Of a stretch of 38,624 nucleotides of DNA, positions 3,165-23,778 are shown piece by piece (the first letter of the stretch is position 1; the number at the start of each line of letters is the position of its first letter). The translations under genes were made by a program, and so were the position numbers. The notes beneath the pieces were generated by a model that worked only from the letters and a program-made list of their open reading frames with translations, was not told the origin of the DNA and did no database searches. Origin of the DNA: Bacteroidota bacterium. GTDB lineage: Bacteria; Bacteroidota; Rhodothermia; Rhodothermales; Bin80. The DNA is taken from the NCBI GenBank assembly GCA_026709065.1, contig JAPOTS010000057.1, positions 1 to 38,624 on the forward strand, read 5' to 3'.

Positions 3165-3208
3165 AATAATTCTTACCTTAGGTGTTTACTGCACTTAAAA
3201 GGTACTTT

Positions 3209-3652
3209 ATGCCTAGATTCAAAGGCCAAAAAACGTCTTCTGTGGATGATAAAGGGCGCATTGCGATCCCTTCCAAGATACGTTCATGTATGGATGTAGC
3301 GGCCCAAAATACGTTCATTACAACTCGAGGATTTGAACAATGCATCTCGGCCTTTCCACTAGATGAGTGGATGGTAATTGAAGATCAGATTGCAAAGCTC
3401 AACCCTTATGATCGCAAGCATCGTGCGTTCACCCGGCGATTTATGAGATGGGCGGAGGAAGTCAAACTTGATTCAAAGGGCCGGATTGGGTTGCAGAGAC
3501 CACTGATTGAGTACGCGGGGATAAAAGGAAATGCTTTGATCATAGGAAGTCAAAATCGTATAGAAATCTGGGATCCAGAAAGATTCGAAGAGTATCTCAG
3601 TGCAGAAGAAAGCGACTATGAAACGCTCGCAGCTGAGGTAATGGCCCAGTGA
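3209..3652 (+). CDS. mraZ: transcriptional regulator MraZ
   Basis: A small DNA-binding protein built of two SpoVT/AbrB-like swapped-hairpin domains. The repeated signature is visible as SSVDDKGRIAIPSK near residues 10-23 and LDSKGRIGLQ near 83-93. I prefer ATG 3209 over the upstream GTG 3182. It gives the family-typical start MPRFKGQ and 147 residues, and an AAGG sits 6 bp ahead of it. It is the first gene of the dcw operon and follows its own presumed operator. Its stop overlaps the rsmH start by one base. Confidence 0.93.
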   Translation: MPRFKGQKTSSVDDKGRIAIPSKIRSCMDVAAQNTFITTRGFEQCISAFPLDEWMVIEDQIAKLNPYDRKHRAFTRRFMRWAEEVKLDSKGRIGLQRPLIEYAGIKGNALIIGSQNRIEIWDPERFEEYLSAEESDYETLAAEVMAQ

Positions 3653-4578
3653 TGATACCAACTGATTACCATGTACCTGTTTTATCTCATACAGTATTGA
3701 ACTATCTGATGACGGACATGAACGGACTTTATGTTGATGCGACAGCAGGCGGTGGTGGACATATCACAGCGTTGCTATCCGCTATATCTTCCAAAGGACG
3801 GGTGATTGCCGTTGATCGGGATGCCGAAGCCGTTGCTAATGTAAAAGCACGATTTCCAGATGCTATTGAGAAAAAACAATTGTTGGTCTATCGTGAGGCG
3901 TTTAGCCGTCTTGAATCATTAATCAATGAGTTTCTTCCAGTGACTGGTTTGCTACTAGATTTGGGAGTCTCATCCAATCAATTAGATTCTGGGGAACGAG
4001 GATTTAGTCATCAGAAAAGCGCTTCGCTAGATATGCGTATGGATCAGAATTCTCAGACTACGGCCAAAGAGATCGTCAATGAATTCGGTGAAGATGAATT
4101 GGTCCATCTCATTCGATCCTATGGAGAAGAACCTCGTGCGCGGACGATCAGTCGGTCAATCATTGCAAATCGCCCGATCAATACAACTGTAAATCTAGCT
4201 CAGATTATTCGCCAGGCAGTTCCTAATCAATTTGAATCTAAAGCTGTGGCTCGGACATTTCAAGCGATACGCATTGCAGTGAATCAGGAACTTGATGAAT
4301 TGGCTCAGATCCTAAAATCTAGTCCCAATATCGTGAAAGAAGGTGGAAGGATCGTGGTGATTAGCTACCATTCCCTTGAGGATAGAATGGTGAAACGAAT
4401 GCTCCGAGATGGGGTCTTCCAAGGAGATGCGCAACGAGATATATATGGAAATCGACTCGTACCATGGAAACCGTTGACACGCCGTCCTGTGACTCCAAGC
4501 AATCTGGAAATCACAGAGAATCGTCGCTCACGGAGCGCCCGACTCCGTGCAGCTGTCCGTTGCTCAATATCAAAATGA
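3652..4578 (+). CDS. rsmH: 16S rRNA m4C1402 methyltransferase RsmH (MraW)
   Basis: Methylates N4 of C1402 in the ribosomal P site using SAM. The 308 residues match the family. Visible motifs are HVPVL at the N-terminus, DATAGGGGH (29-37, SAM loop), AVDRDAEA (53-60), DLGVSSNQLD (103-112) followed by GFSH and LDMRM, and the basic C-terminus. ATG 3652 shares one base with the mraZ stop; a GTG one codon earlier is also possible. It is the second gene of the dcw operon, its normal place. Confidence 0.96.
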   Translation: MIPTDYHVPVLSHTVLNYLMTDMNGLYVDATAGGGGHITALLSAISSKGRVIAVDRDAEAVANVKARFPDAIEKKQLLVYREAFSRLESLINEFLPVTGLLLDLGVSSNQLDSGERGFSHQKSASLDMRMDQNSQTTAKEIVNEFGEDELVHLIRSYGEEPRARTISRSIIANRPINTTVNLAQIIRQAVPNQFESKAVARTFQAIRIAVNQELDELAQILKSSPNIVKEGGRIVVISYHSLEDRMVKRMLRDGVFQGDAQRDIYGNRLVPWKPLTRRPVTPSNLEITENRRSRSARLRAAVRCSISK

Positions 4579-4588
4579 TGTGTAGCTC

Positions 4589-5011
4589 ATGAACTTGTTC
4601 TCCAATAAACAACGACAGCATTCAACGACACGTAATAAGCGTGCAGTAGATCAGGCGATGTTATCCCTGAGTAACTGGCGGGAGCTGACCGTGATAGATG
4701 AATCTGCATCTAAGCCAAAAGTGGTCGCTCGTATTCCCACACTTCACTTTGGTATCATCATCTTTGTTATCGCCGCGATTCTCACCGTATATATAGGACA
4801 AACTCATCGTTCTCAAGATCTTCTGGGAGAAATCAATACCGAAAGAAGAGAGAATGTTCGCCTCCATCTTCAGCATAACCGTCTTGTGGCAGACTTAAAC
4901 GCTGCAATAGGGCCTTCTGTGATTCATTCCCGTGGGACTTCATTGGGGTTAAAAAGAATTCATCAGTTGGAGGATGACCATCTAACTCCCCAACCCCCAT
5001 CTGTGCCATGA
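4589..5011 (+). CDS. ftsL: FtsL-like cell division protein
   Basis: 140 residues with a basic cytoplasmic N-terminus, one membrane segment of about 53-72 (GIIIFVIAAILTVYIGQ) and a short periplasmic region with coiled-coil character (ERRENVRLHLQHNRLV). This is the bitopic layout of FtsL, which forms the FtsQ-FtsL-FtsB complex and activates FtsW-FtsI septal synthesis. FtsL sequences diverge strongly, so the name rests mostly on architecture and on its position between rsmH and ftsI. Its end overlaps the ftsI start in an ATGA junction. Confidence 0.8.
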   Translation: MNLFSNKQRQHSTTRNKRAVDQAMLSLSNWRELTVIDESASKPKVVARIPTLHFGIIIFVIAAILTVYIGQTHRSQDLLGEINTERRENVRLHLQHNRLVADLNAAIGPSVIHSRGTSLGLKRIHQLEDDHLTPQPPSVP

Positions 5012-7026
5012 GTGTACGCGATCAAACCATCGCCAGGATGTACGGTATCTTTGCCGTCTTGGCACTTCTACCATTAATCATTGCAGGGCAGATGGTCTGG
5101 TTGAATATAGCTCAAGGAGATTATCTCAGGGAAATAGGGTGGACACAAGTCGAATCACAGGAGATTTTGCCAGCTCATCGAGGTGAAATTTTGGATATTC
5201 ATGGGCGCGCATTGGCCGTCAATTCTCCTCTATATAAGCTCGCTTTGGATCCTTTAACACAAGGGTTTGACGACGAAAAAACGTTTTTTCTTCTCCGTCT
5301 TGCTGACTTAACCGGTAAATCAATCGCTAAATTGCAAACCCAGATTGATGAGCGTAGCAGTCCGCAGTATGTACGACTAGCTGATCTGACATATGATCAA
5401 CGCAAGGAAGTCTACGCTTGGGATGTGCCTGGAGTCATCCTTGAGGAGAGGCCTCAACGTCAATATGTCTACGGCACATCTTTTTCCCATATTCTGGGGC
5501 GGGTTGATTTAGATGGTGTCGGAATTGCAGGTCTGGAGATGGAATATGATCAATATCTGACAGGACGGCCTGGCAGGCGCACTCTGTTTCGGGATCGACG
5601 TGGGTATCGACGAATAGATGTAGAAGGTCTTGTGGTGCCCCCTGTGGATGGAGAGTCTCTGGTGCTGACAATTGACCTCATACGCCAAACCATCATGGAG
5701 GAAGAACTCGTAGCAGGTGTCGCAGAAGCTGGGGCGCTAAGAGGAAGTGCAATTGCAGTAGAACCATCGACTGGAGCAATTTTAGCCCTTGCAAATGTGC
5801 CTGCATATAATGCAAATGCCCCGATGCAATCAGCACCCTCCGCTTGGCGTAACACCGCGATTACCGATGTTCTTGAACCTGGGTCCGCTTTCAAAATGAT
5901 CGCGGCCACTGCTGCTTTAGAAGCTGGGTATACAACAATGGATCGGCTTGTGGATACAGGAGATGGAAGCCTCCAGATCGCTCAATACACGCTCAATGAT
6001 ATCAATCCTTATGGGGAACTCACCTTCAATGATGTCATCGTAAAAAGTAGTAATGTCGGGATGGCACTGACGACGAGTCCAATGCGCCCAGAAGAATTGT
6101 ATGAATACATCCGCAATTTCGGGTTTGGTGAAAAAACATGGATTGACCTGCCCGGTGAGGTGACTGGGTTACTTAAACGAACAGATCGATGGAGCCAAAC
6201 GACGAAGACGGCTCTAAGTATTGGTTATGAGATCAATGTGACTCCCCTTCAAATGGTAATGGCCTATGCTGCATTGGCAGATGGTGGGCTATTGCGTCAA
6301 CCCTATATCGTTGCCGAGCGACGTGATGTGACAGGTCAAGTCCTGTGGCGCGCTACAGATGATCGCGCACGAACTGACTCAATTCGCAGAGTACTTGATC
6401 TACAGACGGCCAAAATGCTCGTGCCCGCTTTGGTGGATGTCGTTGAACGGGGAACCGCAACAGCAGCAAACATGAAAGATGTTAAAGTTGCTGGAAAGTC
6501 TGGAACTGCAAGAAAAACGGTGGGGGGAGGATACGGTAGTGAATACCGTTCAACTTTTGTAGGATTCTACCCGGCCGACAACCCGATGGTTGCGATGATT
6601 GTTATTCTGGATGAGCCCCAAACTAGTATTTTTGGTGGACGCGTAGCTGCCCCTATATTCCGTCGTATTGCCGAGCGCTGGGCTGTAACATTTTCAACGA
6701 CCGATTCACCCTCGCCAGAATATGATTGGCAACAGACCCTATTTCGTCGTGCCTCTGAGACATGGGCCGATGAATCCTCGCCAACGACTCAGACAGATGA
6801 TCAACCAGTCGTCCCAGATCCGATTCTCTCAGAATACGATACTGCAGTGATGCCAAGTGTGATAGGACTTGATGCCCGAACAGCTCATTCCCTGCTAAGC
6901 TCAAAAGGAATCACCGTACGATTCAATGGGACTGGATCCGTCATTGATCAGACTCCCGCTCCTGGAGATCCAACCACTAATGAAGCCTTACTTCAACTGC
7001 AAAAACATGCTCTGGAGCAACATTAA
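5008..7026 (+). CDS. ftsI: septal peptidoglycan transpeptidase FtsI (PBP3) with PASTA domain
   Basis: Cross-links septal peptidoglycan in the periplasm as partner of FtsW. The protein has 672 residues: an N-terminal membrane anchor (about 11-31), a PBP dimerisation domain, the transpeptidase domain and one C-terminal PASTA domain (from about 612). All three active-site motifs are intact: nucleophile S293 in PGSAFK, S347-S348-N349, and K497-S498-G499-T500. A linker of about 60 residues rich in Ser, Thr, Pro and Asp separates the catalytic and PASTA domains. PASTA-bearing FtsI proteins are common in Bacteroidota. The start overlaps ftsL by an ATGA junction. The gene is followed by a short frame where murE should be. 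Confidence 0.96.
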   Translation: MSVRDQTIARMYGIFAVLALLPLIIAGQMVWLNIAQGDYLREIGWTQVESQEILPAHRGEILDIHGRALAVNSPLYKLALDPLTQGFDDEKTFFLLRLADLTGKSIAKLQTQIDERSSPQYVRLADLTYDQRKEVYAWDVPGVILEERPQRQYVYGTSFSHILGRVDLDGVGIAGLEMEYDQYLTGRPGRRTLFRDRRGYRRIDVEGLVVPPVDGESLVLTIDLIRQTIMEEELVAGVAEAGALRGSAIAVEPSTGAILALANVPAYNANAPMQSAPSAWRNTAITDVLEPGSAFKMIAATAALEAGYTTMDRLVDTGDGSLQIAQYTLNDINPYGELTFNDVIVKSSNVGMALTTSPMRPEELYEYIRNFGFGEKTWIDLPGEVTGLLKRTDRWSQTTKTALSIGYEINVTPLQMVMAYAALADGGLLRQPYIVAERRDVTGQVLWRATDDRARTDSIRRVLDLQTAKMLVPALVDVVERGTATAANMKDVKVAGKSGTARKTVGGGYGSEYRSTFVGFYPADNPMVAMIVILDEPQTSIFGGRVAAPIFRRIAERWAVTFSTTDSPSPEYDWQQTLFRRASETWADESSPTTQTDDQPVVPDPILSEYDTAVMPSVIGLDARTAHSLLSSKGITVRFNGTGSVIDQTPAPGDPTTNEALLQLQKHALEQH

Positions 7027-7318
7027 TTCAAGACTACCTGCAGAGGGGCTTCGCCGTACCAACCTCCAATGGGTCAACACTAACATGACCAATAGGATAT
7101 ACACATTGATTTTGGATAGAAACCAGCCCGATGCCCACGATGCATTTGATGCAGAGATCACTTTCGTCGTATCCCATCAGGATCGTAAGACATACAAAGA
7201 TAGTGCTATCATCGGCAAAGAATTTCAATCCAATCAAATTGGAGATGAATTCCAGCGGGTCATATGTGATTGGGAATTGGTACTTAACGAGATCCAACCT
7301 TTTTTCCATAGGCTCTGA
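7007..7318 (+). CDS. short open frame in the murE position; hollowed MurE-like remnant
   Basis: 103 codons where Bacteroidota dcw clusters carry murE (about 490 codons). Two weak matches flank a missing core. Residues 36-49 (LDRNQPDAHDAFDA) fit, without a gap, the N-terminal MurE signature of type LDSRxVxPGDLFVA, sharing L, D, D, F and A. Residues 54-65 (VVSHQDRKTYKD) resemble the C-terminal VLxAGKGHETYQ motif, followed by IGDEFQRV where FDDREV is expected. The ATP-binding domain with its GTNGKT loop, and most of the rest, is absent. It overlaps the ftsI end by 20 bp and stops 2 bp before mraY. A start at ATG 7085 is an alternative that would lose the N-terminus. It cannot be an active ligase. 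It may be a fossil, a coupling spacer or a new small protein. The homology is by eye and weak. Confidence 0.55.
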   Translation: MLWSNINSRLPAEGLRRTNLQWVNTNMTNRIYTLILDRNQPDAHDAFDAEITFVVSHQDRKTYKDSAIIGKEFQSNQIGDEFQRVICDWELVLNEIQPFFHRL

Positions 7319-7320
7319 TT

Positions 7321-8481
7321 ATGCTATATTTTTTGATACAGTGGTTGGAGTCAGTATTTAGCCCGCCTGGATTTCAGGTTGTAGAATTCATAACAGTTCG
7401 CGCGACACTAGCCGCCATTACCGCATTTATGATTGTTATGGTCATCGGCCCTCGCGTCATTCAGTGGTTACAGAGTAAGCACATCGGAGAGCGAGTTCGT
7501 ACAGAGTTAGCTGTCAATGGAGTAGACCATTCACACAAAGGTGGGACTCCTACAATGGGAGGTTTGATTATTGTGAGCGCAATCGTGATTTCAACTCTAT
7601 TGTGGGGGGATCTGCGGGAGATTTTTGTTTGGTTGATTTTGATTACCACCGTTTGGATGGCCGCGTTTGGATTTGCAGACGATTATATCAAGACCATCAA
7701 ACGAAATAAGAAAGGATTAGCCGCGCGGATGAAGCTAACAGGTCAAATTGGGCTGGGGTTACTCATTGGGATAGTCATGTATTTTCATCCCCAATTTGAA
7801 GCAACGCGGACAGTGACAGAGATCCCCTTAGTCAGGGATTGGCACCTTGATTATAATGTACTTGGAAATTTATTTTTTGCTGGAGTAGATCTTGGATGGC
7901 TTCTCTTCATTCCGACGACGATTTTCATTGTTACTGCAACATCTAATGCTGTCAACCTGACCGATGGTATGGATGGTTTGGCGGCGGGAACCACCGCTAT
8001 TGTTGCAATAGGGCTGTTCATTTTGGCGTACATATCGGGGCATCTGGTTTTTTCCTCATACCTCGGAGTCATGTATCTTGAAGGGGCTGGCGAATTGACG
8101 ATTTATGTCGCCTCATTAGTCGTTGCATGCTTAGGATTTTTGTGGTATAACAGCTACCCTGCATCCGTATTTATGGGAGATACGGGATCATTATCGCTGG
8201 GAGCTGCGATTGCAGTGATTGCATTGATGATCAAAAAAGAGCTACTACTCCCTTTGTTATGTGCGATCTTTTTTGTTGAGACGGTGTCAGTGATTATACA
8301 AACCACATATTTCCGATACACCCGCCGTAAGACTGGTGTTGGGAAGCGGGTTTTCCGGATGGCTCCGTTGCACCATCATTATGAAGCCAGTGGAATGCAT
8401 GAAGTCAAAGTTGTTTCACGATTTTGGTTAATCACTGTCATCACGATGCTCGCCGCATTACTTACACTCCGGATTCGATGA
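7321..8481 (+). CDS. mraY: phospho-N-acetylmuramoyl-pentapeptide transferase MraY
   Basis: Transfers phospho-MurNAc-pentapeptide to undecaprenyl phosphate, forming lipid I in the inner membrane. The 386 residues span about ten membrane segments. The conserved acidic sites are present: FADDYIK, NAVNLTDGMDGLAAG and GDTGSL, and the cytoplasmic loop motif MAPLHHHYE. It is longer than the roughly 360-residue enterobacterial enzyme, with extra sequence after HPQFEATR and around YLGVMYLEGAGEL, as in Bacteroidota homologues. It starts 2 bp after the murE-slot frame, and its stop overlaps the murD-slot frame in ATGA. An intact MraY implies that UDP-MurNAc-pentapeptide is still made, so Mur ligases must exist elsewhere. 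Confidence 0.97.
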   Translation: MLYFLIQWLESVFSPPGFQVVEFITVRATLAAITAFMIVMVIGPRVIQWLQSKHIGERVRTELAVNGVDHSHKGGTPTMGGLIIVSAIVISTLLWGDLREIFVWLILITTVWMAAFGFADDYIKTIKRNKKGLAARMKLTGQIGLGLLIGIVMYFHPQFEATRTVTEIPLVRDWHLDYNVLGNLFFAGVDLGWLLFIPTTIFIVTATSNAVNLTDGMDGLAAGTTAIVAIGLFILAYISGHLVFSSYLGVMYLEGAGELTIYVASLVVACLGFLWYNSYPASVFMGDTGSLSLGAAIAVIALMIKKELLLPLLCAIFFVETVSVIIQTTYFRYTRRKTGVGKRVFRMAPLHHHYEASGMHEVKVVSRFWLITVITMLAALLTLRIR

Positions 8482-9041
8482 GAAACCAACCATTGATTAA
8501 CGCAAAACAGGTGATCATGCAAGGAGATCTCCATGTGTCTGAGAATCATTTAGGTTCCTCAGGCAAAGAAATCGTTATGTATGATGGTAAAATAGTTGAT
8601 CCTGAATCCCATAAAGGATCTAAACAAATAGGGCATCACTCATGCGAATATGGATCTTCAAAATTGAATCTAAATGCAGGTTTTCAGGTCACCGGATCCA
8701 GTGCCACTCAATCAGCTTTTCTATTAGATAGAGTGCTTATCACTGAAATGTCTGTCAACGACCAAACTGAGGTAACTTCATGGCAAGCAACTCGCGTGGT
8801 TACAGGATTAAAATGGGCTAATAATAAAACGACCATAGTATCCTCAGACGGGCATGTGATGAGTTACCAGATCTCTACTACTGAAATGACAGGACCGCCA
8901 AGCTCAGATAATATTCATCCATTGCACGCACAACCACTCTTGGCAGATGAGATGATCGCTTCTGAATGTTGGCCAATGGATTTATTCACTGGCTATACAG
9001 AAGATGGGGAATGTTCTTGGTCTAATTGGAAGGGTTTCTGA
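8478..9041 (+). CDS. short open frame in the murD position; hollowed MurD-like remnant
   Basis: 187 codons where murD (about 450) is expected. Residues 10-36 (KQVIMQGDLHVSE... to EIVMYD) follow the strand-loop-helix-strand pattern of MurD domain 1, although the GLGxSG loop is eroded. Residues 100-126 (TSWQATRVVTGLKWANNK and on to SSDGHV) track the domain 3 signature NDSKATN...AL...GG.DKG. Residues 162-178 (SECWPMDLFTGYTEDGE) track the terminal SPACASFDMFKNFEDRGE. The central ATPase domain with GTNGKT is missing, as are the usual catalytic residues. It begins in an ATGA overlap with mraY and stops 2 bp before ftsW. It is not a functional D-glutamate ligase. The matches are read by eye, but three lie in the correct order at the correct locus. 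Confidence 0.6.
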   Translation: MRNQPLINAKQVIMQGDLHVSENHLGSSGKEIVMYDGKIVDPESHKGSKQIGHHSCEYGSSKLNLNAGFQVTGSSATQSAFLLDRVLITEMSVNDQTEVTSWQATRVVTGLKWANNKTTIVSSDGHVMSYQISTTEMTGPPSSDNIHPLHAQPLLADEMIASECWPMDLFTGYTEDGECSWSNWKGF

Positions 9042-9043
9042 AA

Positions 9044-10195
9044 ATGGCAAACCAATTTAGATCCATTGTACTGCGGGCCCAGAATCCTATGGATAAATAT
9101 GTTCTTTGGATCGCCCTTGCACTTTCTGCAATTGGTGTGATGGCGGTCTACAGTGCGATTGCCTTTTTGGCCGAAGTGAGAGCGGATGGGGACACCGAGC
9201 AGTATCTCTGGAGGCATCTATTACGTTTAGGCGTAGCGCTGACGGCTTTGGTGATCTTCAGCAGGATAGATTACCATCATCTTGCCCGCTGGTCAAAGCT
9301 ATTTCTGGTCGCATCTTTGCTCTCACTAGTCTTGGTTCGCATCTTTGGGGTCTCTTATGGAGGGGCTACACGGGCGTTTCAGTTCAGTATTGTTAGTTTC
9401 CAGCCATCAGATTTAGCCAAGGTGGCTGCGGTGCTGTACATCTCGGTGTTATTAGTTCGAAAACAGGACTATATTAGCAGTTTCTCCAAAGCAGTTCTCC
9501 CAATCCTATTTTGGGTGTTTATCACGGTCATATTGATTGGACTTGAGGATTTGTCTACGGCCCTTTTAGTGTTGATTACGCTACTTCTATTGGCATTTGT
9601 TGGACGAGTGAGTCTGAAGTATCTGGGATTAGGGTGTTTAACGGGGCTCGCGTGTGCTTTTCTGATGCTTTTGGCATCTCCGAATCGAGCGGAGCGAATT
9701 GAATCGTATCTGGGAGTCAAAATATTCCCGAATACCGAAGAGGTAGATGTCTTCAGTTTGCAGTCTGAGGGATATCAAGCGCATCAGGCGCAGATTGCCC
9801 TTGCGATGGGGGGATGGACTGGCCGTGGGCCTGGTAAGAGTGTCCAGCGCGATTTTTTGCCTGCCCCATATAACGACTTCATTTTCGCGATCATCACTGA
9901 AGAATATGGTTTGATTGGAAGTCTTGTGCTTCTGGGGTTATTCATGCTATTTTTGTTCAGAGGATTTTTACGAATTGCGCGCCATGCCTCAGATCCTCTT
10001 GGTCTATTTCTGGCCGTTGGTTGCACGACGCTTTTGTTTTTATATAGCCTGATTCATGCAGGAGTATCGGTAGGGATTCTCCCTGTCACAGGACTTCCAC
10101 TCCCTCTGGTGTCCTATGGTGGAACATCTATGGTCGCTACAGGGATGGCGATTGGCATTTTACTGAACATTTCCATACAGGCCGAACGACAATGA
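9044..10195 (+). CDS. ftsW: septal peptidoglycan glycosyltransferase FtsW (SEDS family)
   Basis: Polymerises lipid II into glycan strands at the septum with FtsI. The 383 residues form about ten membrane helices. SEDS hallmarks are visible: SFQPSDLAKVA, LEDLSTALL, GGWTGRGPGKS and PAPYNDFIFAIITEE, with the aspartate in the last being the expected catalytic or essential residue, and LPLPLVSYGGTS near the end. I chose ATG 9044 over the upstream in-frame TTG 9026. GGAAGGG lies about 10 bp ahead of the ATG, and the TTG would overlap the preceding frame. The stop overlaps the murG start as ATGA. Confidence 0.95.
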   Translation: MANQFRSIVLRAQNPMDKYVLWIALALSAIGVMAVYSAIAFLAEVRADGDTEQYLWRHLLRLGVALTALVIFSRIDYHHLARWSKLFLVASLLSLVLVRIFGVSYGGATRAFQFSIVSFQPSDLAKVAAVLYISVLLVRKQDYISSFSKAVLPILFWVFITVILIGLEDLSTALLVLITLLLLAFVGRVSLKYLGLGCLTGLACAFLMLLASPNRAERIESYLGVKIFPNTEEVDVFSLQSEGYQAHQAQIALAMGGWTGRGPGKSVQRDFLPAPYNDFIFAIITEEYGLIGSLVLLGLFMLFLFRGFLRIARHASDPLGLFLAVGCTTLLFLYSLIHAGVSVGILPVTGLPLPLVSYGGTSMVATGMAIGILLNISIQAERQ

Positions 10196-11295
10196 GACCT
10201 CCTCGAATACTATTTGCAGGTGGCGGTACTGGTGGCCATATCTATCCAGCGATTGCCATTGCCCAGGCCATCCGTTCAATTGAACCCATGAGTGCGATTG
10301 CGTTTGCGGGAACCAGAAATCATTTAGAATGGGATGTTGTCCCAGATGCTGGGTTTGAGATTCATCCGATTACAATTAGTGGATTTCATCGCAAAAAGCT
10401 GTTACGCAATATTGGGTTTCCGTTCAAGTTAGCAACGGGGCTGTGGCAAAGTTATCAATTGGTGCAGGACTTTGATGCGGATGTAGCTGTTGGAACGGGT
10501 GGCTATGTGTCGGGCCCTGTGTTATGGGCAGCGAGTATGCGGGGCCGACCAACGGTTGCACAAGAGCAGAATGCCTATGCAGGGATGACGAATCGAATTC
10601 TTGGCTATCGTGCAGCGCAGGTGCATATTGCATTTGAGGAAGCAAAAAGCTGGTTTCCTGAGGGGCGTTGTCGGGTGAGTGGAAACCCTGTTCGCCAAGA
10701 GTTGGCTACCGCCATAAATCGTGAAGAGGCACGAAAAATACTTCAACTTCCGAAGGATGCCAAAGTCTTGTTTGTTTTTGGAGGTTCGCTAGGAAGCCAA
10801 GCGATCAATGAGGCAATGTTTCAGATGGTAGACCAGATCCTGTCTGATCCTATGGTTTATGTCATTTGGCAGACTGGAAGACTGTACTATGATCGGATGA
10901 AGAAAAAGAAACATGCAAGGCTTCAAATTCTAAAATATGTTGATCAAATGGAATTGTCCTATGCCGCTTGTGATTTAGTTCTTGCGCGATCGGGTGCTCT
11001 AACTTGTAGTGAGCTTTTATGCACTTCTACACCATCAATTTTGATTCCTTCTCCAGTGGTTGCTGAAGATCATCAGACAAAAAATGCTCGCAGTATGGAG
11101 CGTATTGGAGCAGCAGTGTTAATCCCTGAAGAGGATCTGCTTAATGCGTTGACTATACAAGTTCCTGCGATTTTAGCAGATCCAAAGCGGAGGGGTCAAA
11201 TGGCCGAAAAAGCGCGGAAAGCAGCAAGACCACAAGCCGCAACAACGATCGCCAATGATATTCTTGATTTAATCGGATGGGAGGAATCATCATGA
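10192..11295 (+). CDS. murG: UDP-GlcNAc:lipid I N-acetylglucosaminyltransferase MurG
   Basis: Adds GlcNAc to lipid I on the cytoplasmic face of the membrane to give lipid II. The 367 residues form the GT28 two-domain fold. The N-terminal glycine loop is FAGGGTGGHIYPA (8-20), the second glycine loop is GGSLGSQAIN, and the C-terminal sugar-nucleotide site is ARSGALTCSELL followed by PSPVVAEDHQTKNA. It is coupled to ftsW by an ATGA overlap and to the short murC-slot frame by another. Its substrate requires all four Mur ligases, none of which is intact in this cluster. Confidence 0.97.
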   Translation: MRPPRILFAGGGTGGHIYPAIAIAQAIRSIEPMSAIAFAGTRNHLEWDVVPDAGFEIHPITISGFHRKKLLRNIGFPFKLATGLWQSYQLVQDFDADVAVGTGGYVSGPVLWAASMRGRPTVAQEQNAYAGMTNRILGYRAAQVHIAFEEAKSWFPEGRCRVSGNPVRQELATAINREEARKILQLPKDAKVLFVFGGSLGSQAINEAMFQMVDQILSDPMVYVIWQTGRLYYDRMKKKKHARLQILKYVDQMELSYAACDLVLARSGALTCSELLCTSTPSILIPSPVVAEDHQTKNARSMERIGAAVLIPEEDLLNALTIQVPAILADPKRRGQMAEKARKAARPQAATTIANDILDLIGWEESS

Positions 11296-11609
11296 ACTTG
11301 AAGCGCCGACAACGAGATTTGTGTCATATCGGTCCCTTAACGATGACTTGCATTAGACTAGATTTGTTAACGACTGTATACCCGAGTAGGGGCATCATCG
11401 TTGATCAACAAAAATTGTCTGCCGCCGTGACCTTTCAGGGGTATGAGATAGGAGCTGATTTAGAGATTTATTCATTGGTCATGAATCTCTTATATACATC
11501 GATAGATCTTTGTTTAATCAATAATTTAGTCATGTTATTGGGAGTTGACAGTAGTCAGCAGACAGCATATCAGTTTACCGACCATTCGCTAAACATACGG
11601 TTACAATGA
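11292..11609 (+). CDS. short open frame in the murC position; MurC domain 1-like remnant
   Basis: 105 codons where murC (about 460) is expected. The whole frame can be laid along MurC domain 1. CHIGPLTMTCIRLDLL (11-26) stands where HFIGIGGIGMSGIAELL occurs, with the glycine loop eroded. VDQQKLSAAVTFQGYEIGA (37-55) fits SDLxxSxxTxxLxxxGAxI. NLLYTSIDLCLINNLV (65-80) fits the ENLPxDADLVVYSSAI strand. DSSQQTAYQF (86-95) fits DNPELxAA. The frame then stops, so the ATPase domain (GTHGKT) and the ligase domain are absent. It starts in an ATGA overlap with murG and ends in an ATGA overlap with ftsQ. An upstream start at ATG 11277 is less likely. It cannot ligate L-Ala. The homology is by eye. Confidence 0.58.
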   Translation: MNLKRRQRDLCHIGPLTMTCIRLDLLTTVYPSRGIIVDQQKLSAAVTFQGYEIGADLEIYSLVMNLLYTSIDLCLINNLVMLLGVDSSQQTAYQFTDHSLNIRLQ

Positions 11610-12310
11610 AGCGCTATTTAATTACTGTGACGATTGTGCTTCCTTGTATTGGAGCGATTTTAGGGTGGCAATATTTATTGCAACAGCCTTGTACGGACAT
11701 TCATATTTCAGGGATGGAGTACATTGACCCTGAATCTGTGCATAGCTTGATTGGCTCAACATTCAGTCCACCTCTGATTGTTGACCGCTTGCAACGTCAT
11801 CCTTGGATACATGGAGTACATGCAGTTTGTTACCCAACAGGGACGATGCAGATTGATGTTAATGAGCGTCAGCCCTGGCTTTTAGCTGTTTCTGATGAGG
11901 GCTATCCGATCTACTATATTGATGAATTTGGATTTATGATGCCTCCGCAACGGCATATCTCTTTTGATGTGCCAATCATTCGTGGAATGGATGAGGTGTA
12001 TCATCCGATGAAGGCGGTTACTCATCAGAATGTTCAAAAATTGGTAGCCATGATTCCGACACTTCCCGCTGAAATTCTGACTATTATTTCCGAATTTGAG
12101 GTGACCGATACTGGATTGAATATGATTCTGCGAGACTCGGAGATGAATCATGTTCTAGTCGCACAGCTTGGTAATGAGCAATGGAAGCATCGACTACATA
12201 AACTCCGAGCCTTTTGGATTGAGAATGACTGGAATCAGGCAGATCAAGTGCCAGGCATGATTGATCTACGATTTCGGGGGCAAATTATTACAAGAAAAAA
12301 AGAGATATAA
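11606..12310 (+). CDS. ftsQ: cell division protein FtsQ
   Basis: A bitopic membrane protein of 234 residues. It has a short cytoplasmic tail, one membrane helix at about 5-24 and a POTRA domain beginning with the strand DIHISGMEYI and its helix (about 31-95). A beta domain follows with the recognisable ERQPWLLAV and YYIDEFGFMMP segments. FtsQ scaffolds FtsL/FtsB and recruits FtsW-FtsI. It starts in an ATGA overlap with the short murC-slot frame and ends 5 bp before ftsA. Confidence 0.92.
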   Translation: MKRYLITVTIVLPCIGAILGWQYLLQQPCTDIHISGMEYIDPESVHSLIGSTFSPPLIVDRLQRHPWIHGVHAVCYPTGTMQIDVNERQPWLLAVSDEGYPIYYIDEFGFMMPPQRHISFDVPIIRGMDEVYHPMKAVTHQNVQKLVAMIPTLPAEILTIISEFEVTDTGLNMILRDSEMNHVLVAQLGNEQWKHRLHKLRAFWIENDWNQADQVPGMIDLRFRGQIITRKKEI

Positions 12311-12315
12311 ATAGT

Positions 12316-13566
12316 ATGGCTATGGACGATCAAATTATTGTCGGATTAGATATCGGTACAACGAAAGTGTGTGCTGTCGTCGCTGAGTCTGGTCAGTATG
12401 GGGAGATCAATGTCCTTGGAATGGGAATTGCGGAATCTAAGGGATTAAATCGTGGGGTTGTTATTAATATTGACAGGACGGTTGCCTCCATTCAGAAAGC
12501 GATTCATGCCGCTGAGCGGGCAGCAGATGTAGAGGTTCAGAACGTCATTGTTGGAATTGCAGGGGATCACATCAAGAGTTCTTTGAGTCGGGGAGTTATC
12601 ACCATCTCAAATCCTGAAATTACCGAAGGGGATGTCAAGCGATTACTTGAAGATACAACGCGCGTGGCCATGCCACCTGACCGGGAAATTCTACACATCA
12701 TTCCGCAAGAATTCAGTGTAGATGGGCAGGATGGCGTATTAGACCCCGTGGGAATGAGTGGAGTGCGACTTGAAGCGAATGTGCACATCATCACAGGGTT
12801 AGTTTCTGCGGCCAAAAACATTGATCGGTGTATTGAAAAAGCTGGATACCATGTCTCTGATGTTGTACTTGAACCATTGGCGAGTTCGTACAGTGTGCTC
12901 TATCCTGATGAAATGGTTGCTGGTGTGGCATTGATTGATATTGGAGGTGGAACCACAGACATTGCTATTTTTGAGGATCACAGAATTCGACATACGGCGG
13001 TGATTGCCGTTGCAGGCAACCATGTGACGGAAGATATCAGAAATTGGCTCGGTGTGATGCGCAGTCAGGCCGAGCAACTCAAGTGTAAGTTTGGGTGTGC
13101 AATGGTTGACCACAGCGACAGTAACGATGAGATCAAGATCCCTGGTCTGGGTGGTCGCCCTGAAAAAACGATCAGCTCTGGGGCGTTGGCTCAGATCATC
13201 CAGCCCAGAATGCAGGAAATTTTGGAGATCGCCGACTTAGAGATCAGGCGTAGTGGTAATGGGAAACATCTTCAAGCGGCAGTTCTAACGGGTGGTGGAT
13301 CACTGATTGCCCATACCAAAGATCTTGCTGATGAGGTCCTCGGACTTGACACCAGAGTTGGGAGTCCAACCAAACAAGGAAGTGGGCTGTGGGAAGAGGT
13401 TTCAGATCCCAAATATGCAACTGGAACAGGCCTTGTACTCTACGGCCTTTCCCCCAATAATTTAGGAGATATTCGTCGCGAGAGAATAGGAGGCGATAAG
13501 GGTAATAAAGAATCAGGTTTCACTAAATTTTTCAGCCGAATGAAGGGCTGGTTTGATGAACTTTAA
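12316..13566 (+). CDS. ftsA: cell division protein FtsA
   Basis: An actin-like ATPase that tethers FtsZ filaments to the membrane. The 416 residues show phosphate 1 (GLDIGTTKVCAV, 10-21), phosphate 2 (LIDIGGGTTDIAIF, about 206-219) and the adenosine motif (VLTGGGSLI). The 1C domain typical of FtsA lies between about 85 and 165. The last 15 residues (FTKFFSRMKGWFDEL) form an amphipathic helix, the usual membrane-targeting sequence. It lies directly between ftsQ and ftsZ, the standard arrangement. Confidence 0.97.
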   Translation: MAMDDQIIVGLDIGTTKVCAVVAESGQYGEINVLGMGIAESKGLNRGVVINIDRTVASIQKAIHAAERAADVEVQNVIVGIAGDHIKSSLSRGVITISNPEITEGDVKRLLEDTTRVAMPPDREILHIIPQEFSVDGQDGVLDPVGMSGVRLEANVHIITGLVSAAKNIDRCIEKAGYHVSDVVLEPLASSYSVLYPDEMVAGVALIDIGGGTTDIAIFEDHRIRHTAVIAVAGNHVTEDIRNWLGVMRSQAEQLKCKFGCAMVDHSDSNDEIKIPGLGGRPEKTISSGALAQIIQPRMQEILEIADLEIRRSGNGKHLQAAVLTGGGSLIAHTKDLADEVLGLDTRVGSPTKQGSGLWEEVSDPKYATGTGLVLYGLSPNNLGDIRRERIGGDKGNKESGFTKFFSRMKGWFDEL

Positions 13567-13581
13567 AACTATAATTCGCTA

Positions 13582-14835
13582 ATGACTCAAAAACAATCAA
13601 CGGATAATATCATGGAAAACCAAAGCAAGCCACGGTTCGCATTTGATGCTGAGTACCATGGGACAGCAAAAATTTGTGTAGTTGGTGTAGGAGGTGGAGG
13701 TGGGAATGCTGTCAATAGTATGATCAATAATGGGCTTGAATCCGTGGATTTCATGGCTATCAATACGGATTCTCAGGATCTGAGAAAGAGTTTGGCAAAT
13801 CACAAAATTCAGGCTGGTCGAGAGTTGACAAAAGGGCTTGGAGCAGGTGCACGTCCAGAGGTAGGGATTCAAGCCATCATGGAGTGTGCTGAGGAGATTG
13901 AGCAATCATTACGTGGCTTTCACTTGGTATTTGTGACCGCAGGCATGGGGGGCGGCACTGGGACTGGAGGGGTCTCAATTGTTGCCGATATTGCGAGACG
14001 TATGGGGATTTTAGTTGTTGCCATTGTCACCAAGCCCTTTGAGTTTGAAAATCCCAAGCGCATGGAATACGCTTTAAGCGGTATTGAGCGTTTGAAAATT
14101 CATGTGGATACTTTGATTGTCATTCCCAATGAACGATTACTAGATATTGCTGATGAAACCACGAACCTCTCCGATGCATTTCAGCGTGCGGATAATGTTC
14201 TGGGTGATGCGACACGAGGCATTAGTGATTTAATTACCAAAACAGGTCTGATTAATTTGGATTTTGCAGACGTTAAAACCACGATCAAAGACAGTGGGAC
14301 GGCCATCATGGGAGCTGCCACTGGCGATCTCAAAAAAGACGGTGCTGAGTCTATAACGATGGAAGCGATTTCAAGTCCATTGATGGATGGCATTTCTATA
14401 TCAGGTGCGCGAAATGTTCTTGTTAATCTGACTGCTGGAGCTGTGCCAATCAAAGAGGTCAATGCAGCAATGGCAGTGATCAAGAAAGAGGCAGGTGCAG
14501 ATACCGAGATCATTACCGGTGTGGTGGTAGACAACAATCTGGAAGGGAAAATGCGTGTGACGGTGATAGCCACTGGATTTGAAGATAAAGATAAGGGGGT
14601 CATTAGACGGCCAGTAAAATCATTGTCCGAAGAAAAAAGGTTTGGATATAAAGGCGAGGATAATCTGAAGATATTGGACAAACCTGCTTGGGAGCGCAGG
14701 GGGCTTGCTTCGCGCAAGGGAGAAGAAGATTCTCATAATACAAAGATTCGGTATCTCAATGAGGATGATGCGCCTGATAAGAGTGAGGATCAAACCGAAA
14801 CCGTCCCTAATTTTTTGCGTAAAATGATGGATTAG
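13582..14835 (+). CDS. ftsZ: cell division GTPase FtsZ
   Basis: A tubulin homologue that forms the cytokinetic ring. The 417 residues contain the N-terminal nucleotide loop VGVGGGGGNAVNSM (34-47), the tubulin signature GMGGGTGTGG (121-130) and a complete GTPase plus C-terminal domain. A polar linker of about 80 residues follows, ending in the conserved peptide VPNFLRKMMD that docks onto FtsA. ATG 13582 gives a slightly extended N-terminus; ATG 13612 is the alternative. It is the last gene of the dcw cluster. Confidence 0.98.
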   Translation: MTQKQSTDNIMENQSKPRFAFDAEYHGTAKICVVGVGGGGGNAVNSMINNGLESVDFMAINTDSQDLRKSLANHKIQAGRELTKGLGAGARPEVGIQAIMECAEEIEQSLRGFHLVFVTAGMGGGTGTGGVSIVADIARRMGILVVAIVTKPFEFENPKRMEYALSGIERLKIHVDTLIVIPNERLLDIADETTNLSDAFQRADNVLGDATRGISDLITKTGLINLDFADVKTTIKDSGTAIMGAATGDLKKDGAESITMEAISSPLMDGISISGARNVLVNLTAGAVPIKEVNAAMAVIKKEAGADTEIITGVVVDNNLEGKMRVTVIATGFEDKDKGVIRRPVKSLSEEKRFGYKGEDNLKILDKPAWERRGLASRKGEEDSHNTKIRYLNEDDAPDKSEDQTETVPNFLRKMMD

Positions 14836-19651: not shown

Positions 19652-22177
19652 TCAAGTCAGCATAGCATTTAATTGCGCCTTCCAATCATTCTCATCTATG
19701 ACACTGTAGCGAACCACAATATCTTGCATTTTGGGAGCTAATTTAGCCCATCCAACTTTTTGGGCATGCTGGTTGCAGACATCAAAAATTGATCGCTTAT
19801 ACTCGGTATCATCAGACTTGGACAAATGAATGCCCTTGGTTTCAACCACGAATACTTCCTGAAATGATGCTTGATCTTCAGGTGAATTATCCTTGAGTGT
19901 TAAGATAAAGTCCGCGTAAATTTTCTGGGGCTTCCATCCTTGCACATAATAATCTTTTTGAGATCGATTTCGATACCAGAAAAAGAGTTGAGATTGCTGG
20001 TCAACATAAGTCGCAACCTTCGTCTCTAATTTATTGAGTTGGTCTACTTGAATCGCTTCAAAGAGACTCAATTGATAAGGACGGCCATCAACTCGGTTCG
20101 CATATTTTATACCATAAGCATCAATCTCTTCTGGCAGGCGATTGAGTCCAATGTCCTCTGTAACAACAAGGAACCTAATGGTTTCTTCCTCTAACAGGGA
20201 ATAAAATACCATTTTTGAAAGGCGGTCTCGTTCCTGCTCAAGTTGTTTTCGGAGTTGCTCAACGATAAACACAGAATTGTTTGCCAGCTGAGCTGCTGTA
20301 TAACGTTCACTCAAGAGACTAAACGTCTGCTCAATCAAATCATAACAATGCCAGGGGTTTGGAATTAAGTCAATCAGAGTGCTGGTTGATGTGCTCAGGT
20401 CTACTGACGAAACATTGGTTGAATGTTGATATTCTTCAGTTTCATACTCAACGGATAGATTAACCCTAAAATCATCAGCTCCATTTAGCTTTGCTTTAAG
20501 AATTAAATTTTGAAGTGGAGAAATGTCAATTTCTTCCCAAGGTATCAGTGAAAGAATATCTGTCTCGTAGGAAACAAGCCTCCATTGGCTTCCGTCTTTA
20601 ATCATAAATGCGGGCAGAACTAGATTACGAATGGCTTCTTTATAGCGTTCCCTTGGCTTGATTTTCTGTTTTTCTCTTTTTGTAAAATCACTCTCTGCAG
20701 ATGTAAATATAGGCTCAAGCCCTTGTAATCCATCTAAATGAAAACCCTTTTTGATTTCTTTTAGAATCGCATTCCCGCTACGACTATAGCAATAGACATA
20801 ACTCTCATCCAAACTTGATATACCGGTCTTATGAGCATAGGGCTGCCGAAGAATCCGTCCAACAAGTTGTGTCAATCCTGTCTTGGACATCGGATTGGTA
20901 AGGATTGTCAGTAAATAGGCGAAAGAGCAATCCCATCCTTCTTGCAAAGCTTGTTTTGTAATGATAAAACGAATAGAACAATTACGAGATAGTAACCCCT
21001 TTTCCTCTTCAATATCTTTTAAGTCATCTCTGTGACTGGTCTTGATCGCAATATGCTCTGGTTTGATTTTAGAATTCTTTAGTAGAAACTCTTTAACATC
21101 GTCAGTGTGAATATACCCGGGTATCCTTTGATTTTTTCCCGTTCTTTCTACCTGAATGACGCAGATTGGACGGATATAAATACCCGTTTCTGCCTCGTAA
21201 CGCTGAGCTTCAGATTCAAGAAATTCACGATGCTGGATTGACTCGCTGAGTGTACTTCGCCAGTCACTATCCTTCTTGTTACGAATGTGAAGATCAAGCT
21301 TAATCATCTCTTCCGCGTTGAGTTCAACACCGCGAATATCAACAAGCACGTTCGCGTGTTCACTAGGGGTGGCCGAAAGTTCAACGATCATGCAGGGATT
21401 AAAATCCTCAAGTGTTTTTTTCGCATAAACACTATATGCTTTGTGACCTTCGTCAAGTATGATCAATGGTTTGAGAAGGCGTATGGTATTTCCAAGGGAT
21501 GTTTTGACAAATTTGTTACCGAAAACCCCTAGCTCGCTAAAGGTATCTAAATTGGAATACTTTTCAAGTAATTTAGCATGCTCGGATGGTTCATCATCTG
21601 AGGGGAAGAATTGGTCAAACCCTCCGGTGTCGCGATAGATTCTGAGTTGATCTTTTTTGGTTAATCCACGATTAGCTGAGGGAAGCATTAGCAGAAGAAT
21701 ACATAAATTCTCTGCGATATCAGCAGGTCCAAAGGATGAGGTTTTTTCAAAGATGCAGGTCCGTTGTCCAGATGATAAATCAAGTTGTTGACGATAGGGG
21801 TGATCAAGATCCTTTAATGCCTTTAGGGTTTGAGTGTAAATCTGATTTGTTGGAACAATCCACAGTACTAATCCGCGCCGACTATATCGGAAGTGTAGAT
21901 TCACAAGATCAATCACACGAGTAGCGAGTAACGTTTTACCTCCTCCTGTAGGAACTTTGAGACAAAAGGTAGGAAGATGTTCGCCCAATCCATTTTCTCG
22001 AGGACTGTATTGGCTATGAGGTAAGACTTTTTCCCAACCTCGACGGGCCCAATTAAATTCGCCCAATTCAGGATCTCTTGCTCTATCTTGCTTCTCTTTT
22101 TCTTGGAATATGGATAAATACTTGAGAAATTCAGTGACTGTTGCAAGCGCACGTTTCTGATAATCTTTGAGAACCAT
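19652..22177 (-). CDS. res: type III restriction enzyme, Res subunit (helicase/endonuclease)
   Basis: 841 residues of a superfamily 2 translocase fused to a nuclease. The Walker A motif is VPTGGGKT (75-82), motif II is DEGH (242-245) and motif III is SATPSEH. The C-terminal helicase half shows TKQALQEGWDCSFAYLL and QLVGRILRQPY. The C-terminal PD-(D/E)xK nuclease is visible as D756 and E779-T-K781 in VVETKG. Type III enzymes translocate after binding two inversely oriented unmethylated sites and cut DNA nearby. The gene starts 2 bp after mod, so the two form one operon. All motifs look intact, so the system is likely active. Confidence 0.95.
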   Translation of the reverse strand: MVLKDYQKRALATVTEFLKYLSIFQEKEKQDRARDPELGEFNWARRGWEKVLPHSQYSPRENGLGEHLPTFCLKVPTGGGKTLLATRVIDLVNLHFRYSRRGLVLWIVPTNQIYTQTLKALKDLDHPYRQQLDLSSGQRTCIFEKTSSFGPADIAENLCILLLMLPSANRGLTKKDQLRIYRDTGGFDQFFPSDDEPSEHAKLLEKYSNLDTFSELGVFGNKFVKTSLGNTIRLLKPLIILDEGHKAYSVYAKKTLEDFNPCMIVELSATPSEHANVLVDIRGVELNAEEMIKLDLHIRNKKDSDWRSTLSESIQHREFLESEAQRYEAETGIYIRPICVIQVERTGKNQRIPGYIHTDDVKEFLLKNSKIKPEHIAIKTSHRDDLKDIEEEKGLLSRNCSIRFIITKQALQEGWDCSFAYLLTILTNPMSKTGLTQLVGRILRQPYAHKTGISSLDESYVYCYSRSGNAILKEIKKGFHLDGLQGLEPIFTSAESDFTKREKQKIKPRERYKEAIRNLVLPAFMIKDGSQWRLVSYETDILSLIPWEEIDISPLQNLILKAKLNGADDFRVNLSVEYETEEYQHSTNVSSVDLSTSTSTLIDLIPNPWHCYDLIEQTFSLLSERYTAAQLANNSVFIVEQLRKQLEQERDRLSKMVFYSLLEEETIRFLVVTEDIGLNRLPEEIDAYGIKYANRVDGRPYQLSLFEAIQVDQLNKLETKVATYVDQQSQLFFWYRNRSQKDYYVQGWKPQKIYADFILTLKDNSPEDQASFQEVFVVETKGIHLSKSDDTEYKRSIFDVCNQHAQKVGWAKLAPKMQDIVVRYSVIDENDWKAQLNAMLT

Positions 22178-22179
22178 TA

Positions 22180-23778
22180 TTAATCTTGATCTATAGCTTC
22201 ATATATCTGGAAGGGTAGTTGCTGAAAGTCAATATTATATTTGTGAAGAAACTCTCGGTCTAGATATTTTGCTGGTGCAAAGACGAGTTTTCGTTTAGGG
22301 CCAGAGGGTAATGCACGGGCTTCGGAGAGCGATAGGGCAAGATTCTTGAGTTTGTCAACATGAGGCTCGTAAATCAGGAATACATCATGAGATGCAGTCT
22401 CCCCAATAAAACCAGTGTCACGATTTATGATAGTTGGGTCAAATTCTTGCCCTGTCGCAGTGAAGAAAATATAAGAACTCAAATTATTCCATGATGGCAG
22501 ATGCGTACCGTCAATAAGGGTCTCCTTTTTCATAATATTTCCCAATTTAAAATAGCTAAATGTACCTCCAAGTCCTGAATTTAGAGATGCATCCTTGGCA
22601 GTGGGAATTCCTTGTATCACACGCCTAACGCGCTCAGCTGTGGTTGAATCTGCATAATCTTCACATTCTACTAGGATGAAGCGCCGATTGCCCCCATCTT
22701 CCTGATTTTGGGCAAGAACAGCATGCGCGGTGGTTCCAGAGCCAGCGAATGAATCAAGTATGATGGAGTCAGGCTCAGTCGAAAGGAGGATAAGCTTGCG
22801 AATTAAGTCGCTTGGTTTAGGAGTCTGAAATACACCTTTGTTATCAAATATTTGATTCAATTCCTCCGTGGCATTAGTAGCAGTGCCAACATCCTGCCAG
22901 ATCGTTGATACAGATCGCCCTTTTTCTCTTGCCTCCTCTAAAAATCGTTTATATTGGGGCTTGGCTCTGCCAGTTCGTCCAAATACAATGCGTCCATCCG
23001 CAAGTGCCTGCTCATACTTTTCTATGCTAAAACGCCAACATCGCCCTTTAGGGGGGTAATATCCATGCCCAGTCTTTGGATTGACAATTTCGTAGGTTAA
23101 GTTAGGGCGAATGTTGGGTGCATCCATAGGGTCAAGTGTCCATCGTCCGCGGGGATCATTGTCTGGATTAGAGAATTGACTCTCGTCCACTGGAATCGCT
23201 TTAAGTTCAAATTTCTGGGAATTTTTCGTATATCCAAGAATATAATTATGGCCTAATGATACACCAATGTCATTCTGTTTACTCTTTCGGTGATGCCATA
23301 CTAAACTCATCAAGAAGTTTCTTTCACTAAATATCTCATCCATCAAACAGCGGAGATGATGCATTTCGTTATCATCAATGGAGACAAAAATTACCCCATC
23401 TTCCCGAAGGAGTTCGCGAAGAAGTTTTAGGCGGGGCATCATCATACATAACCATTTATCGTGCCGAGTAAGATCATCACGGTCTACAGTCTTTCCCAGC
23501 CAATCCTTAATGAGTGGTGAATTAACATTATCGTTGTATTCCCAATTTTCATTGCCAGTATTATAAGGCGGGTCAATATATATACACTTTATTTTACCGC
23601 GGTAAAATGGTAGTAAGGATTTGAGAGTAGCCAAATTATCTCCATGAACTATCAGATTGTCATGCAGGCTCGCGGTTGCAGAAAATCCTTTTTCTTGAAC
23701 CGGTATTAACTCGTGGAATGGAACAGACATATGATAATTTTCCACTAAAACTTTTCCCTTAAAATGAAGACGTGGCAT
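22180..23778 (-). CDS. mod: type III modification methyltransferase, Mod subunit
   Basis: An N6-adenine (or N4-cytosine) DNA methyltransferase of 532 residues that supplies both protection and sequence specificity to the Res subunit. The catalytic motif IV DPPY lies at 69-72 within YIDPPYNTGNENWEY. The SAM motif I FAGSGTT lies at 344-350, so the order is that of the beta class, as usual for type III Mod. The region between (about 165-320) is the presumed target-recognition domain and includes a conserved DVGT segment. I see no simple sequence repeat inside the gene that would suggest phase variation. The recognition site cannot be read from the sequence. Confidence 0.95.
   Translation of the reverse strand: MPRLHFKGKVLVENYHMSVPFHELIPVQEKGFSATASLHDNLIVHGDNLATLKSLLPFYRGKIKCIYIDPPYNTGNENWEYNDNVNSPLIKDWLGKTVDRDDLTRHDKWLCMMMPRLKLLRELLREDGVIFVSIDDNEMHHLRCLMDEIFSERNFLMSLVWHHRKSKQNDIGVSLGHNYILGYTKNSQKFELKAIPVDESQFSNPDNDPRGRWTLDPMDAPNIRPNLTYEIVNPKTGHGYYPPKGRCWRFSIEKYEQALADGRIVFGRTGRAKPQYKRFLEEAREKGRSVSTIWQDVGTATNATEELNQIFDNKGVFQTPKPSDLIRKLILLSTEPDSIILDSFAGSGTTAHAVLAQNQEDGGNRRFILVECEDYADSTTAERVRRVIQGIPTAKDASLNSGLGGTFSYFKLGNIMKKETLIDGTHLPSWNNLSSYIFFTATGQEFDPTIINRDTGFIGETASHDVFLIYEPHVDKLKNLALSLSEARALPSGPKRKLVFAPAKYLDREFLHKYNIDFQQLPFQIYEAIDQD

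Follow-up and report, generated by a model that had tools for sequence, protein, structure and literature searches.

The dcw operon carries short frames in the slots of murE, murD and murC

The window, i.e. the whole stretch of DNA analysed here (38,624 nucleotides, contig JAPOTS010000057.1 of the Rhodothermales assembly GCA_026709065.1, referred to as G000), contains a dcw operon in the order mraZ, rsmH, ftsL, ftsI, slot E, mraY, slot D, ftsW, murG, slot C, ftsQ, ftsA and ftsZ. In nine same-genus and three same-family genomes, the three slots hold intact murE (~490 aa), murD (~451 aa) and murC (~475 aa). In G000, they are occupied by frames of 103 codons (slot E, 7007..7318), 187 codons (slot D, 8478..9041) and 110 codons as listed (slot C, 11277..11609), all on the forward strand and here called stubs. 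Intact on the same strand are mraZ and rsmH at the operon start (3182..4578), ftsI with its transpeptidase and PASTA domains according to Pfam (5008..7026; 58–68% identity to same-genus relatives), mraY (7321..8481; 74–85%), ftsW (9044..10195), murG (10192..11295; 77–84%), ftsQ (11606..12310), whose start overlaps the murC-stub stop codon (ATGA), and ftsA and ftsZ (12316..14835). For ftsW, the list of open reading frames gives a TTG start at 9026; the ATG at 9044, two bases past the murD-stub stop, is probably the start, and an early estimate of a conserved 16-base murD/ftsW overlap was dropped on this ground. The rest of the dcw operon is under normal constraint, while murE, murD and murC have decayed.

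As a wider control, we inspected 80 Bacteroidota loci around mraY, and nearly all of those with flanks long enough carry intact murE, murD and murC. Exceptions are L080, which has no murC in its flank, and L108 and L109, in which one gene is split between frames; L113, with no mur genes near mraY, was rejected as a case of loss, its gene arrangement being dispersed. The stretches of G000 examined have a GC content of ~43% compared to 48–54% in same-genus relatives; the lineage has drifted towards AT. Since GC content is consistent among the G000 contigs, the window does not look like an obviously foreign one. Elsewhere in the window, both on the reverse strand, a Type III-like restriction subunit adjoins an N6/N4 DNA methylase (19652–23778), and an enolase-superfamily epimerase is followed by a DUF1611 protein (30016–32117). 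The best models of this epimerase are L-Ala-D/L-Glu epimerase and DgcA, both under cut-off, and the DUF1611 protein is DgcN-like, also under cut-off; the pair is conserved in intact relatives.

Slot E holds a remnant of MurE

The frame in slot E starts with an ATG at 7007, inside the end of ftsI (7026), and closes with a stop codon at 7316–7318, directly ahead of the mraY ATG at 7321. The open reading frame named in the initial annotation thus exists, with 103 codons between ftsI and mraY; the annotation had read it as the joined N- and C-termini of MurE on account of two motif matches. Neither match exceeds chance: LDRNQPDAHDAFDA, assigned to the DSR motif, scores 3.2, which 85% of same-frame shuffles equal or beat, and SHQDRKTYKD, assigned to the GKGHE motif, scores 9.1, which 57% of the shuffles equal. 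A plain profile search of the frame with hmmsearch is likewise not significant (-0.2 bits), and no Pfam match appears at E up to 10. The profile score and the chance-level motifs would suit a frame that arose by accident between genes and does not descend from MurE.

Because the frames in slots E and C have shrunk or diverged beyond the reach of an ordinary profile search, we employed tests anchored at the gene ends. Residues 1–15 of the murE stub, MLWSNINSRLPAEGL, align ungapped from the start codon with MNWTDLHTRLASEGL of the relatives (0/3000 shuffles as good), and residues 8–15, which lie outside the ftsI overlap, are significant alone (0/20000 shuffles). Towards the other end, residues 68–93, IIGKEFQSNQIGDEFQRVICDWELVL, match VAGRGHESAQDKNGVQVKLKDQDLVL at 10 versus 12 residues from the respective ends (P 0.0015); this 26-residue match was obtained with a shift of up to four residues allowed and lies two residues out of register, and the strictly anchored ungapped test of the C-terminus gave no significance. 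The combined anchored score of slot E was again matched by 0/3000 shuffles, and scores were near zero when stubs were compared to the wrong Mur protein in the anchored tests. Alignment to the MurE of close relatives, which had been set beforehand as the check, revealed that each of the nine same-genus genomes (9/9) has an intact MurE of ~490 aa at this very position. The exact start site, the N-terminal 15 residues, the near-register C-terminus, the slot position and the two sister stubs described below all contradict a chance ORF, which we consider highly improbable.

At the level of sequence comparison, the frame at 7007–7318 is hence confirmed as a real MurE stub that joins the two termini of the ligase, with the same slot, the same start and residual sequence in register; operon position and register carry this case, and the joining of the ends stands on residues 1–15 and 68–93 in place of the two motifs originally named. 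The annotation had further proposed one in-frame deletion of the middle of MurE with subsequent drift. An in-frame loss is supported by the retained MurE start, N-terminus and near-register C-terminus and by the intact slot of the relatives, and amounts to a net ~387 codons between the retained ends. That it was a single event is not supported: since residues 16–67 align to nothing, several deletions are possible. The catalytic core of MurE, i.e. the central domain with the P-loop and the ATP- and DAP-binding motifs, was not found in the stub, and the contig has no Mur_ligase_M match.

Stubs of MurD and MurC in the same operon

The initial annotation mentioned neither the murD and murC stubs in the same operon nor the absence of a functional copy elsewhere in the assembly. 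The ATG of the murD stub overlaps the mraY stop codon, and its 187 codons compare to ~451 in relatives. In hmmsearch it reaches 28.9 bits against the MurD profile (shuffle maximum 3.3); it is collinear with MurD from the ATG on, and its C-terminal 29 residues (MDLFTGYTEDG versus FDLFSNYEERG) are in register in the anchored test. Judged by these alignments, the homology of the slot D frame to MurD is beyond doubt, while the central domain is deleted, the P-loop is altered from GTNGKTT to WANNKTT and 42 of the 64 covered invariant MurD residues are lost.

For the murC stub (~475 codons in relatives), the likely start is the ATG at 11292, which overlaps the murG stop codon and has a Shine-Dalgarno-like GGAGGA, so that the frame would span 11292..11609. 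Its start region GGATGGGAGGAATCATCATGAAC compares with GGATGGGAGGAATCAGCATGAAC of a relative, and both ends are in register (anchored N- and C-terminal tests, 0/3000 shuffles as good), with the residues outside the murG overlap being significant alone. Slot and start are those of MurC. No Pfam match was obtained for the stub, which has neither the three domains of a Mur ligase nor a working P-loop. We give an even chance to the view that net in-frame deletion removed most of the interior of murE, murD and murC alike and that drift then took them past function, taken jointly with the salvage by Mpl and MurF discussed below.

The stub frames remain open

All three frames are free of stop codons over 378 codons. 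At saturation, ~23 stops would be expected, with a combined probability of ~3e-11 for none, a figure which overstates the surprise because saturation is incomplete in the stubs. The start sites have been retained, e.g. the GGAGGA and ATG of murC, and each stub ends -4 to +2 bases from the ATG of the next gene, a spacing close to that of the relatives. Ribosomes traversing the stubs would feed the start codons of mraY, ftsW and ftsQ by translational coupling. Such operon coupling is the simplest reason for the open frames, and it is probably why the stubs have stayed translatable and retain their ancestral starts and stops.

Open frames would also be expected if the stubs had become small functional proteins in their own right, e.g. 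a scaffold built on the N-terminal domain of MurD. Hydrophobic residues still occupy 60% of the conserved hydrophobic columns in the MurD stub compared to 17% of the polar ones, and its codon usage is nearer to coding than composition predicts; residual ancestry, however, would yield the same pattern. Moreover, the coding signal is weak in the murE and murC stubs (P 0.0075 and 0.04, respectively), the MurD stub has lost its P-loop and most invariant residues, and no relative carries comparable stubs on which selection could be tested. We therefore regard an own function as unlikely and favor coupling of dead genes.

Ligase inventory of the assembly

MurC, MurD and MurE serve as drug targets and count as essential in almost every walled bacterium. 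The G000 assembly is 98.4% complete with 0.8% contamination and is a draft of 139 contigs, so that functional copies of the three genes could lie in unassembled DNA. Searches with the Mur_ligase_M, Mur_ligase_N and Mur_ligase_C domains, in which stops were read through and E values up to 10 (M domain) or up to 1 (N and C domains) were accepted, found only MurF, Mpl and FolC; MurC, MurD and MurE, three of the four ligases that assemble the cell-wall peptide, are absent from the assembly. By the same search, the other nine genomes of the genus possess five or six ligases.

MurF scores 311.6 bits (NCBIfam). The best model of Mpl is TIGR01081 with 348.6 bits versus a cut-off of 388.7, and the intact relatives tested and G066 (see below) likewise stay below it; the protein carries a GTHGKTT P-loop and the Mpl signature SAYFDKQPK. 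Since Mpl and MurF are 69–75% and 64–69% identical to their same-genus orthologues, respectively, both are under constraint. MurB, Ddl, which adjoins MurF, MraY, MurG, FtsW and FtsI are also kept. The gap between the Mpl and MurC model scores of Mpl (L133:7957-9420) is, at 30.7 bits, the smallest among the relatives scored (48–57 in the same genus); a conversion of Mpl into MurC was considered from this gap and rejected. Equally rejected was a PF01177 gene of G000 and of G066/G068 as a MurI-type sign of a need for D-glutamate: it encodes an aspartate/cysteate-type racemase and is shared by intact relatives. No MurI was found among the PF01177 genes examined in G000–G009, all of which are of this racemase type, G002 having none.

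A second loss within the order

Among 78 genomes of the order that are at least 90% complete, so few ligases are found only in G000, G066 and G068. In the distantly related G066 (96% complete, about 170 contigs), the dcw operon is assembled. Its murE slot measures 527 bp, with every forward frame interrupted by stops, and contains a fragment of 15 residues, GHLFLDKAVSNGATA, of which 12 are identical to the MurE of its sister; of murD only the C-terminal part is left and murC is essentially deleted. The ligases of G066, i.e. Mpl (380 bits), a membrane-anchored MurF-type ligase and FolC, make up the same set as in G000. In the family f5 of the order, L181, L182 and L183 encode, directly behind an alpha/beta-hydrolase-like gene, a MurF-type ligase whose N-terminal region resembles a membrane anchor. 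Since G067 and G069, the sisters of G066, and the remaining genomes of the genus of G000 are all intact, the two losses occurred independently. In its ligases G068 equals G066, and its dcw slots are unreadable as the murG contig is missing. It was rejected as a third independent case, its Mpl being 89% identical to that of G066; it probably shares the loss of G066 and is counted with it. The stops in the murE slot of G066 are a counter-case to the open stubs of G000, so the constraint to stay open is not general.

In both G066 and G000, the lost genes are the dcw-borne ones and MurF is located elsewhere, so that position may have played a part, besides function, in which genes disappeared. This pattern also suits the main competing explanation, in which functional murC, murD and murE, acquired from elsewhere or relocated (e.g. 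to a plasmid or island), were missed by the drafts and wall synthesis is ordinary. The assemblies are in 139 and about 170 contigs, and essential genes do vanish from such drafts, as the missing murG contig of G068 illustrates. Against relocation, three genes would have to be moved and missed in each of two independent lineages whose genomes are 98% and 96% complete, and no fragment of the Mur_ligase_M, N or C domains beyond the three known ligases is found on any G000 contig at E up to 1–10. The closest MurE on known plasmids has ~40% identity and is no close relative, and no MurD was found on viral contigs, in collections which sample this group poorly. We consider relocation a real possibility, if a lesser one than true loss of the three genes.

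Mpl and MurF as a candidate route to the wall precursor

Since MraY, MurG, FtsW and FtsI are conserved, we infer that lipid II is still made. This would require UDP-MurNAc-pentapeptide, for which MurF and Ddl would supply the last step, and among the enzymes found, the UDP-MurNAc-tripeptide could come only from Mpl. By loading ready-made tripeptide onto UDP-MurNAc, Mpl would bypass exactly the steps of MurC, MurD and MurE. The Mpl of Psychrobacter uses the tripeptide at 260 per min versus 0.7 for L-Ala and 1.4 for L-Ala-D-Glu (PMC3060825); Mpl would thus replace the three ligases only if the tripeptide is supplied. A thermosensitive murC mutant is stated in one paper to be complemented by E. 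coli mpl in multiple copies (PMC3060825). Mpl may thus have some MurC activity, but MurD and MurE would remain missing. As recycling of the own wall gives no net growth, an outside source of peptide or an unrecognised synthesis would be required.

One form of such a synthesis would be the de novo production of the free stem tripeptide by non-Mur ligases, with Mpl loading it onto UDP-MurNAc. This would fit a genome that has lost MurC, MurD and MurE but retains Mpl and MurF, and no importer would be needed; an OppA/MppA-type binding protein was not found in G000, which speaks against peptide uptake, though most of the genus is also without one. No candidate enzyme was found, however, and the enolase-superfamily and DUF1611 pair is present in intact relatives as well (66–71% identity). 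Both this pair and an enolase-superfamily gene next to mpl in G066/G068 were rejected as a replacement pathway, since genomes whose Mur ligases are intact have such genes too. We know of no precedent for free tripeptide synthesis of this kind and consider it quite improbable. The cell is instead probably a stem-peptide salvager with a putative external tripeptide source. With middling confidence, we propose an obligate route through Mpl and MurF that is fed by ready-made tripeptide, the specificity of Mpl being predicted, and stubs kept translatable for operon coupling.

Relation to known systems and significance

Mpl-dependent recycling of murein peptides in Escherichia coli and Psychrobacter arcticus (PMC3060825) likewise employs intact Mpl, here recognised by P-loop and signature, together with MurF, Ddl and MurB to turn free tripeptide into UDP-MurNAc-pentapeptide. 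In these organisms, Mpl is optional beside essential MurC, MurD and MurE, whereas in G000 all three are missing. Among known cases, the MurNAc auxotroph Tannerella forsythia (PMC5790795, PMC7670621) comes closest: it also belongs to the Bacteroidota, has lost essential precursor steps and lives on salvaged fragments. T. forsythia lost the sugar steps (MurA, MurB), whereas in G000 MurB is present and the peptide steps are lost from the assembly, although unassembled DNA may hold copies. Internal deletions, lost catalytic residues and drift are shared with ordinary operon pseudogenes; unlike these, three essential genes are affected at once, with frames open and ancestral start and stop geometry. 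Among the open papers searched, which mostly leave out subscription journals, none describes a bacterium that has naturally lost MurC, MurD and MurE while retaining Mpl.

The evidence is evenly balanced on the wider proposal that in at least two Rhodothermales lineages Mpl is the sole entry of stem peptide into peptidoglycan, with MurC, MurD and MurE lost, the tripeptide probably scavenged and MurF finishing the precursor. The three stubs would serve as a clean natural experiment on whether coupling within the operon is enough to keep dead genes open. If the proposal is true, a walled bacterium without all three ligases would have arisen twice in one order, each time with the bypass enzyme kept; this would mirror the MurNAc auxotrophy of Tannerella and would show that the peptide part of the wall precursor may turn into a shared good in microbial communities.
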